This document shows, piece after piece, positions 44,517-47,919 of a stretch of 57,624 nucleotides of DNA. Both the position numbers and the translations under genes were made by a program. The stretch comes from a virus, in IMG/VR virus record IMGVR_UViG_3300045588_000058, positions 1-57,624 of that record; one strand, 5' to 3'. The notes below the pieces were generated by a model. It had not been told where the DNA came from, did not search any database, and saw only the letters and a list, made by a program, of their open reading frames with translations. Position 1 is the stretch's first letter; each line of letters opens with the position of its first letter.

Positions 44517-44550
44517 AATGTAGTTTAATTTAATAATTGGTTTTAATTTG

Positions 44551-44623
44551 TTGCGGTGATTGGACTCGAACCAATGACTGTCAGCTTATGAGGCTGCTGA
44601 GCTACCAACTGCTCTACACCACG
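44551..44623 (-). tRNA. tRNA-Met (CAT), initiator-like
   Basis: A complete 73-base cloverleaf on the minus strand starts with CGTGGTG and ends with CACCGCA plus discriminator A. The D stem is GAGC/GCTC, the loop AGTTGGTA, the anticodon loop CTCATAA (anticodon CAT), the T stem ATTGG/CCAAT and the T loop TTCGAGT. C1 faces A72 unpaired, and the D stem has an A11-U24 pair. Both are marks of bacterial initiator tRNA-fMet. The three G-C pairs of a normal initiator anticodon stem are missing (GCAGC/GCTGA, with a G27-A43 mismatch). CCA is not encoded. It lies 35 bases upstream of the start of the 322-aa gene. Confidence 0.92.
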
Positions 44624-44630
44624 ATTTAGT

Positions 44631-44850
44631 AGAGTGGTTCCACCGAAGGAACCTGAACCTGGATACTATCCATTTCAAACACTCTGACACTTAGTTACGT
44701 TGCTATGCAAGAGGCTTGACTAAGTATTTTTTAAAGCTGTCCAAACTAAATCCTGCTTTCGCTGTCTAGATTTTATTCTGCTTTAGGATTGAGATCAACC
44801 CCCTCTAGGAGGGAGAGGAGGTGAGGGGATCTTTCTCAGAAAAATGAGTT
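44631..44850 (-). ncRNA. Candidate structured RNA between capsid gene and tRNA-Met
   Basis: This stretch carries no gene but several complementary segments. They are AGAGTG/CACTCT (44631-44636, 44680-44685) enclosing GGTTCC/GGAACC and GGAT/ATCC; ACTTAGT/ACTAAGT (44689-44695, 44719-44725) enclosing TTGC/GCAA; AATCCT/AGGATT (44749-44754, 44785-44790); CCCCTC/GAGGGG (44800-44805, 44823-44828); and CTCA/TGAG (44835-44838, 44845-44848). It is visibly richer in G and C than the flanks. Read-through from the capsid gene would produce it joined to the tRNA, 7 bases away, so tRNA processing could release its 3-prime end. I know no family that it matches. The transcribed strand is assumed from the neighbouring genes. 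Confidence 0.55.
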
Positions 44851-44915
44851 ACTCTGGTACGCCTACAACTAGTAAAAAGTAATTATTCTTCTTGGCGTAG
44901 TAACTACTGTTATTA

Positions 44916-46490
44916 TTAGAATTGTGGCATTTCCTCAATCAACACAGTTCTAGACAAATCTTCAATAAATACATCACATCTGTCTTTCATCCAGATTTCG
45001 TATCCTGGGAATTTGTTAGCACTTGACATACCTTGAGATTTTGCAAATCCTAAGTGATGACGAGTTCCATCAATATAACCCCAAGTCATAGAAGGAGCAC
45101 CTTTCATACGTACTTCTCTAATGTTATTCACCATACTACCATCACCCATTGGAGAAACATCAAACACCATAAATACAGGAGTAGATTTTTTGTTTTGTCC
45201 AAATTCTAGGTTAGATTGTGGTAAATCCAATTCTTTCAAGTGAATAAGTTCAACACGACCAGTCTCACGTGTAACCATTGCATCAAATGCAAAGTTGTAA
45301 GTAATGTGTTGTCCTTCACCTTGCATATATCTGTTTCCAGAATCTGCCATAAATGTAAGACCACTGTTAAGAGCATCTGTTTTCAAAGCTTGTTGGAATA
45401 CATCAAATCCAGCTTCGTTAGTATACATTTTAACACGTCTGTCTTTTACATCCACTCTTCTGTAGAACAAATCTCCAAAAACTGAACGAATCAAGTTAGC
45501 AGAAAATTCTCCACGGTTATATTGTACCAAGTTACCGTTGTTACGCATTCTGTGATAAACACCAGCAGATGTACGTTTAACTTCTTGTTTAGACCCACCA
45601 GATTTAACTGTACCTGGTTTAGCCCAAATCATACGTTTAACTTTAAGTTCAAGCATAGATTTACGCATCCAGAATTCAATAAACGGTTCCCATTTAACAT
45701 CATTACGAGTAAGTGGTAATTGGTTACGTCTTTGTGGAGCATATACCAAAATATCAAGAGGTTTACCTGAAGCATCTCTCATCATTTTATCATCAGCCCA
45801 TTCAGTGATTTTGTGCTCATAACCATATGCAGAACCCAAAGATTCAAACATTGTGATTTGCTCACCCAATCTTGGAAGACCCAATAAATCTTGATCGAAT
45901 TCTCCAATTGCAGCATCAACTAATTCTAGTTCAATACCATGTTGTAAAAACAAAGGATTAACAAAGTCAACAGTTGGGTTATCAGTTACAAGTGTAAATG
46001 AATACAAATAACCTGCATTCCATGGCAATGGATCTTTGATCACGTAGAAACGTGGACCATATTGACGTGTACCTACAGAAATGATAGCATTTTTAGAAAA
46101 TTCATTAGTATCCAATACTAATTGAAATTCTTGACCATCAATACCAACTTTACCAGAACCAGTAATACCTTCAATGATATCTGTAGTAGAGCTAGGAACA
46201 TCAATAATTTTTGGGAATTTGTAAGGAACTGCTACTTGCCATTTCCATGCATCACTATTATTATCTATGTAATAAGGTGTGCTTTTGTTGATCATGTCTA
46301 AGAAGTCATTACTGTACAACGAGCTCTGGGTATAAAGACTGATGATTTTTTTATCATAGTCCGCAGGCTCAGTAGAGTGAAAACTCTCTAAGTGATTTGA
46401 GTCTGTAAGTTTACCTACAGCACGTTTGTCCATAGACGCTACTCGTGCATAAGTAAAACCAGTTAACCCAGGGATTGTTTGAATACTCAT
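44916..46490 (-). CDS. Major capsid protein
   Basis: The 524-aa protein has the expected length and position (directly after a scaffold-like gene and portal) for the HK97-fold major capsid protein of crAss-like phages. Its sequence is mixed alpha/beta without enzyme motifs. Stretches such as GTRQYGPRFYVIKDP and PVFMVFDVSPMGDG suit the fold. Codon use is richer in C and G at third positions than in neighbouring genes, as expected for the most abundant protein. The start MSIQTIPGLTGFTYARVAS has an A/T-rich leader without Shine-Dalgarno, usual for Bacteroidota. It is followed by the structured RNA and the tRNA. Confidence 0.85.
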   Translation of the reverse strand: MSIQTIPGLTGFTYARVASMDKRAVGKLTDSNHLESFHSTEPADYDKKIISLYTQSSLYSNDFLDMINKSTPYYIDNNSDAWKWQVAVPYKFPKIIDVPSSTTDIIEGITGSGKVGIDGQEFQLVLDTNEFSKNAIISVGTRQYGPRFYVIKDPLPWNAGYLYSFTLVTDNPTVDFVNPLFLQHGIELELVDAAIGEFDQDLLGLPRLGEQITMFESLGSAYGYEHKITEWADDKMMRDASGKPLDILVYAPQRRNQLPLTRNDVKWEPFIEFWMRKSMLELKVKRMIWAKPGTVKSGGSKQEVKRTSAGVYHRMRNNGNLVQYNRGEFSANLIRSVFGDLFYRRVDVKDRRVKMYTNEAGFDVFQQALKTDALNSGLTFMADSGNRYMQGEGQHITYNFAFDAMVTRETGRVELIHLKELDLPQSNLEFGQNKKSTPVFMVFDVSPMGDGSMVNNIREVRMKGAPSMTWGYIDGTRHHLGFAKSQGMSSANKFPGYEIWMKDRCDVFIEDLSRTVLIEEMPQF

Positions 46491-47776: not shown

Positions 47777-47919
47777 ATGTAGTTGTATTTTTGTTTGGTT
47801 TATTTAGTGTAAATGTATAATAAGAGTTTATAATATCAAAGCATTATGAATCAATGTAGTCCAATTTTGTTGATAATATAGCATTAAAATTTTTATCTCC
47901 CCCGAAGAGGAGAAGTTTT
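47777..47919. other. Spacer between portal and scaffold genes
   Basis: This 143-base gap holds the portal terminator at its right side and an A/T-rich leader for the scaffold gene. The best promoter-like sequence is ATGCTTTG on the minus strand (47844-47837), which departs from TAnnTTTG at the first two positions and has no TTTG at the proper spacing. A phage-specific promoter, read by the phage polymerase, could lie here but I cannot recognise it. Confidence 0.4.
47896..47913 (-). terminator. UUCG-capped hairpin after the portal gene
   Basis: Read leftward, TCTCCTC and GGGGAGA form a 7-bp stem (one G-U pair) closed by a TTCG tetraloop, followed by TAAAAATTTT. It begins 6 bases after the portal stop codon. 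A partial terminator or RNA-stability element that separates portal expression from scaffold/capsid expression is likely. Confidence 0.7.

Follow-up and report, generated by a model that had tools for sequence, protein, structure and literature searches.

A modular RNA cassette behind the capsid gene of crAss-like phages: a probable array of RNA antitoxin mimics related to Bacteroidota AbiF partner RNAs

Background

AbiF is the proposed ancestor of Cas13. It is a HEPN RNase that is kept inactive by a partner RNA, which binds directly and acts in trans (PMC12373285). The partner RNA of C. difficile AbiF is about 100 nt long and contains two abiF motifs (PMC12373285), and, according to a review, AbiF cleaves and processes its own RNA (PMC12737573). 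Only a few single examples of phage RNAs that mimic defence RNAs have been described, namely pseudo-ToxI of phage PhiTE, where ToxIN is suppressed by phage RNA imitating a type III antitoxin (PMC3475682), and the RNA anti-CRISPRs (Racr), in which phage RNAs mimic CRISPR repeats (PMC10651486). A solitary abiF RNA has also been noted, without a mechanism, in cyanophage S-CREM1 (PMC9964418).

The present analysis concerns an IMG/VR phage record of 57.6 kb, the whole of which is called the window hereafter. The original prediction for this DNA had pointed to a structured RNA in a non-coding interval behind the capsid gene, and had named the large ornate phage RNAs GOLLD and ROOL for comparison, noting that this RNA is shorter and shows none of their recognisable motifs. 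We describe here a string of hairpin modules at this position, two of which match RNA antidotes of Bacteroidota AbiF toxins, so that the virus probably makes decoy antidotes against suicide defences of its host.

Results and Discussion

The phage and the extent of the structured RNA

Terminase, portal and capsid genes related to those of crAss-like phages were found in the window, and sequence comparison of these genes places the phage in this group. Its terminase shows 27-40% identity to those of Lbo-JY46, Cellulophaga phi17:2 and uncultured crAss-like records, the closest named ones being from Leptolyngbya phage Lbo-JY46 (40%) and Cellulophaga phi17:2 (32%), and phrog_11589 and phrog_6547 were matched in the window. 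The host is probably a member of Bacteroidota, as judged from the bacterial twins of modules K and M1 (see below) and the hosts of the phage relatives.

The structured RNA spans positions 44631-44910 on the minus strand, from the major capsid protein (MCP) gene to the tRNA, and has the same sense as the capsid gene and the other genes (Table 1). The prediction is thereby corrected in strand and in extent: the predicted interval, 44631-44850, cuts the element, which reaches 44910 and consists of at least five hairpin modules in the window (C, M1, M2, B and K), together called the cassette. Several features of the interval were confirmed: it has no coding sequence and separates the capsid gene from the tRNA, the claimed complementary arm pairs are present, and it is richer in GC than the genome (42.3% versus 30.7%; 0.5% of 220-nt windows are as high). 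The predicted multi-branch element AGAGTG/CACTCT corresponds to module C, and the nested stem ACTTAGT/ACTAAGT to module M1. The folding z-score was -2.22 for the minus strand versus -0.57 for the plus strand, and -2.15 for the whole 290 nt; folding energy alone is moderate and no proof, and the proof of structure is comparative.

Table 1. Features of the capsid 3' region in the window
Feature	Position	Strand	Basis or remark
Leader AAACCAA..AACTACAT of the next gene	44517-44549	minus	possible promoter or translation start motif
tRNA-Met (CAT), optional module	44550-44623	minus	tRNA detection; comparison of relatives
Module C, near-universal three-way junction	44631-44685	minus	alignment, covariation, model R1
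Module M1, homologue of Bacteroidota sRNA divergent from AbiF-like gene	44689-44725	minus	bacteria-only profile, model R2
Module M2, optional hairpin, inner GACAGC..GCAGGA..GGACAG	44732-44786	minus	fold; 5/236 distinct relatives
Module B, near-universal C-rich hairpin, pyrimidine-rich loop	44790-44838	minus	comparison of relatives
Module K, hairpin with asymmetric internal loop, AbiF-upstream RNA homologue	44846-44910	minus	model R3
MCP gene	44916-46490	minus	phrog_11589 major head protein, E = 1.7e-33

Conservation and exchange of the modules

The first relatives, 80 sequences with 93-97% capsid identity, were supplemented by pattern searches and more distant capsid queries. About 236 distinct relatives have the cassette at the same position with its modules freely swapped; the interval from the capsid gene to the next gene is mostly 120-400 nt, or 500-800 nt where ORFs are inserted. 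The order of the modules is fixed: 5' hairpins (K-type or a double hairpin), B, optional M2/M3/M1, C, an optional tRNA and the leader. Only B and C are near-universal, C being absent from L315 and L355 and B from L119. When the fewest changes were counted on a capsid-gene tree of the 236 distinct loci, M1 required 9 changes for 13 carriers, M2 4 for 5, M3 10 for 18, the K-type hairpin 26 for 49, the double hairpin 23 for 36 and the tRNA 13 for 33, all of these counts being approximate because the modules were recognised by regular expressions and a quick tree was used.

Module C has three helices, P1 (AGAGUG/CACUCU), P2 with a bulged G in most relatives, and P3 with a UUCRRU loop. From an alignment of 59 distinct sequences, RNAalifold recovered the three helices unaided, with 12 of the 15 pairs compensated. 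In the named structure 90.3% of cells were paired versus 72.7% after shuffling, and double changes numbered 200 versus 50 +- 9. Under a custom phylogeny-preserving null similar to that of R-scape, six pairs, two per arm, reached E <= 0.05, and the top-scoring column pairs were almost all structural. The covariation in module C is therefore strong, also against a phylogeny-aware null. Lack of covariation or conservation among relatives had been set beforehand as the outcome that would speak against a structured RNA; the relatives showed covariation as well as conservation, and covariation together with synteny in about 236 distinct relatives supports a structured RNA from the capsid transcription unit. 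Model R1 matches module C of the window at E = 8e-12 with no other match near, and of the 24 records of 98-119 kb, 23 have a single R1 site each; in a pattern scan the examined loci, among the matches listed, were at the junction of the capsid gene and the next gene. In a tRNA-like reading of module C, which was considered, the T-loop would be UUCRAU; this loop has 6 nt and often a G at position 5.

A search with Rfam at gathering and relaxed thresholds against the window, the relatives and the bacterial loci detected tRNA only, the GOLLD and ROOL covariance models did not match, and no known core of a self-cleaving ribozyme was seen by eye. A single large ornate RNA of the GOLLD/ROOL kind would fit a structured RNA near a tRNA in a phage; since the modules are independent and individually dispensable, and no Rfam family was matched, this reading is extremely improbable, and a resemblance to GOLLD or ROOL is not supported, the architecture being a string of independent hairpins.

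Some of the modules were also found elsewhere in phages. In unrelated phages M1 lies between tRNAs (L417), on a 260-kb contig where a double hairpin and a terminator follow (L422), and before a terminator (L424), and M3 occurs in L589. Unrelated phage contigs (L205, L322, L422, L514 and others) also carry the double-hairpin motif CCYCUAAGGAUAGUAUCCUUAG(A)C-YGAC..GUUUC, either whole or with at least the first hairpin. This is another portable RNA; its pattern gave nothing above chance in 396 Bacteroidota genomes. A blastn search for M2 and K in named phages gave nothing useful. Homing endonuclease-like ORFs were observed inside the cassette interval of several relatives (L060/L061, L025, L030, L042, L057, L169, L220 and L225), and in L060/L061 the insertion falls within the anticodon region of tRNA-Met.

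Module K and RNAs upstream of Bacteroidota AbiF genes

A conserved RNA, for example AATAGTACTTGCCACGCTACCCGTCAGAACAGCGTCCCAGGGCAAGTC (L607), lies upstream of canonical Bacteroidota Abi_2 genes, with a terminator and then the toxin gene behind it. In most of the Bacteroidales AbiF loci fetched, an RNA of this class precedes the Abi_2 domain by about 150-200 nt. Covariance model R3, which was trained on 11 bacterial RNAs upstream of Abi_2/AbiF genes and zero phage sequences, detected module K in the window with 31.9 bits (E = 2.9e-6), the next best match having 12.7 bits (E = 0.44). In the phage relatives, whose 5' module is ACAGTAGTTACTACGCTACCCATAAGAACAGCGTCCCAGAGTAACTC with compensating stem changes, R3 reached E values down to 1.2e-13, with nearly all matches directly behind the capsid stop. 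Module K also follows the capsid genes of L514 and L505, which belong to a different crAss-like lineage with 22% capsid identity. The canonical apical loop of K, UCCC..GAAC, is kept in many relatives and absent in the window, where a longer stem is found instead; a similar replacement occurs in the bacterial AbiF RNA of L601. The window copy is thus a K homologue with a variant apex, and its affinity is uncertain owing to the absence of the canonical loop. RF03085 did not recognise bacterial or phage K at its gathering score; as this model misses the Bacteroidota RNAs, the link between K and AbiF rests on the conserved position next to the gene.

Four further observations concern this class of RNA. 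Two K RNAs about 580 nt apart were found in the bacterial AbiF loci L604 and L626. Downstream of K behind the capsid gene of L505 is another multi-branched, GC-rich non-coding stretch. In other phages (L476 and L484) a K-type hairpin replaces the anticodon arm in tRNA-like sequences, possibly as a decoy on a tRNA scaffold. Finally, L617 and L619 have a third conserved RNA (CCCGGUAGUCCCUGA..UCAAACURYCGGGUUUCG), read divergently upstream of an Abi_2-like gene of about 238 aa; it adjoins AbiF-like genes without K and is probably another class of AbiF partner RNA.

Module M1 and RNAs divergent from AbiF-like genes

A bacteria-only profile identified M1 in the window at E = 1.8e-11 (next best, 1.2), and the score with model R2 was 59.1 bits. 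The G-U pairs in its outer helix agree with an RNA from the minus strand. Scanning GTDB genomes with the M1 core pattern gave 38 bacterial loci, 30 of which, nearly all from Bacteroidota, have the full stem, and in many of these the RNA is preceded by a promoter-like sequence and ends in front of a terminator. An AbiF-like gene was found at 23 of the 30 full-stem loci, the remaining seven having no detectable one, versus 0 of the 8 stem-less chance matches. The linked protein is about 230 aa when complete and is encoded divergently, typically 40-60 nt from the M1 RNA. Each of seven bacterial genomes checked has one copy of M1, and its distribution across Bacteroidota is patchy (4/248 genomes). 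No M1 was found in plasmids, and a 24-nt match in Streptococcus satellite phages was rejected as a chance match without the outer stem.

The M1-linked protein matches PADLOC PD-T4-5/AbiD at E = 6e-16. Its match to Pfam Abi_2, at E = 4e-5, narrowly misses the cut-off, and it retains the HEPN motif RNRINH. Since a PDB sequence search gave no match, a fold search was needed. With the AlphaFold2 model (pLDDT 92), Foldseek returned the PbAbiF dimer with its ncRNA (8vz6) as the only confident PDB match (probability 1.00, E = 0.023, TM 0.58/0.47), the others listed having probabilities of at most 0.13. The model thus has the AbiF fold, and the M1-linked protein is of the same fold as PbAbiF but distant from it.

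The homology to AbiF-linked RNAs indicates that at least two modules, K and M1, are orphan copies of partner RNAs from two different Bacteroidota AbiF/Abi_2 HEPN subfamilies. This homology, which the original prediction of a structured RNA had missed, offers a concrete function for the region. By analogy with the AbiF systems studied elsewhere, both Bacteroidota RNAs would act as antitoxins.

Proposed function and alternatives

The window and 24 related phage records of 98-119 kb gave no match to an Abi_2 toxin gene, so that the phage element is not a toxin-antitoxin locus but an orphan RNA. We propose, with a probability of roughly 0.7, that the cassette supplies, from the capsid 3' UTR, a series of RNA antitoxin mimics disarming AbiF-family abortive infection. 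The cassette would travel on the transcript of the MCP gene as its 3' UTR, and be made in large amount through the high-level transcription of the capsid unit. The hairpins would fold independently, either remaining in the mRNA or being cut out, and would bind AbiF-type toxins that are otherwise freed once transcription in the host declines and its own antitoxin is degraded, thereby blocking abortive infection. Swapping of modules would track the toxin repertoire of local hosts, and the optional tRNA may replace a tRNA damaged by AbiF-type RNases.

Might K and M1 instead be functionless remnants of phage-borne toxin-antitoxin systems or AbiF-type gene carriers that have since been lost? AbiF systems are indeed often found on prophages (PMC12373285), but a trace of the toxin was found in 0 of 25 phage records, the stems are held paired by compensatory change, gains were repeated and independent, and placement behind capsid genes is common to two lineages; this origin is very improbable. 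We give as little credence to a reversed flow, in which the bacterial RNAs copy phage capsid-UTR elements and the phage RNA competes with them, so that the system senses infection. The shared sequences do not tell the direction, and the two directions are hard to separate by sequence alone; a trigger of this kind should however tend to disappear from a phage, whereas the modules were regained repeatedly, and the effect of free AbiF RNA in trans is neutralisation, not activation (PMC12373285).

The cassette could also be an ordinary stack of 3'-UTR hairpins, which ends or stabilises the abundant capsid mRNA and keeps its expression apart from that of the next gene. Relatives with about 40% capsid identity have a plain intrinsic terminator at the same spot, and part of the cassette may accordingly serve ordinary 3'-end functions; module B is terminator-like with a U tract in some relatives (L293 and L311), and a putative leader or promoter motif lies downstream. 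Module B of the window, however, has no U tract, and a terminator or stabiliser needs neither the conserved three-way junction nor homology to two unrelated classes of AbiF-linked RNA. We therefore consider this explanation unlikely for the cassette as a whole, while such a function could be a second role of module B. An anti-Shine-Dalgarno reading of the B loop, CACCUCCU, was dropped, since conservation of this loop breaks down in the L204-type clade. The leader AAACCAA..AACTACAT stands before the ATG of two structural genes, at 47777-47919 (minus) and at the position in Table 1, in one of the two cases after an intrinsic terminator; it is possibly a late promoter or a translation start motif.

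Within the proposed array of antitoxin mimics, only K and M1 were matched to bacterial RNAs in this study, and no counterpart was found for B and C, the two near-universal modules. Bacterial AbiF loci gave no match to simple patterns for M3 and C, and R1 detected no module C among 396 Bacteroidota genomes, although this test was weak and had no positive control. B, C, M2 and the other modules may likewise be anti-defence RNAs. A bolder version is tentative, and we would not yet favour it: each optional hairpin, as well as B and C, would imitate the RNA partner of its own host toxin, HEPN or type III-like, and the phages would reshuffle the modules to keep up with the toxins of their hosts. If this is true, unknown RNA-controlled toxins could be sought with B, C, M2, M3 and the double hairpin as baits.

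Comparison with known systems

If the proposal is true, the cassette is a natural, widespread and combinatorial form of RNA mimicry on a presumably abundant phage transcript. The crAss-like phages concerned, which occur in many IMG/VR metagenomes, are linked here to AbiF. The analysis also defines two classes of Bacteroidota AbiF partner RNA, both unrecognised by Rfam 15, and suggests a route to new RNA-antitoxin systems, from an orphan phage module to its bacterial twin.

Like GOLLD and ROOL, the cassette is structured phage RNA near tRNA genes, whereas its modules are much smaller, independent and without a model match. Its closest known counterparts are the AbiF ncRNAs (AbiFr / RCd22; RF03085), small hairpin RNAs beside the gene of an Abi_2/AbiF HEPN toxin: K corresponds to the RNA that precedes AbiF genes in Bacteroidota, and M1 to the one encoded divergently from an AbiF-like gene. 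Unlike these systems, the phage has no toxin gene and chains different classes in a capsid 3' UTR. The abiF sRNA of S-CREM1 is likewise a solitary abiF-type RNA in a lytic phage, but it is one copy of an Rfam class, concerns another host phylum and forms no array. Racr is also a solitary RNA unit that copies a host defence RNA to occupy its protein; the targets differ, being Cas proteins for Racr and, as we infer, AbiF toxins for the cassette. Pseudo-ToxI, too, is a phage non-coding RNA imitating a bacterial RNA antitoxin, and the cassette would similarly defeat abortive infection. However, pseudo-ToxI is one repeat type directed against ToxN and expanded in laboratory escape mutants (PMC3475682), whereas the cassette combines different AbiF-type RNAs and is kept behind the capsid gene across a large natural clade.
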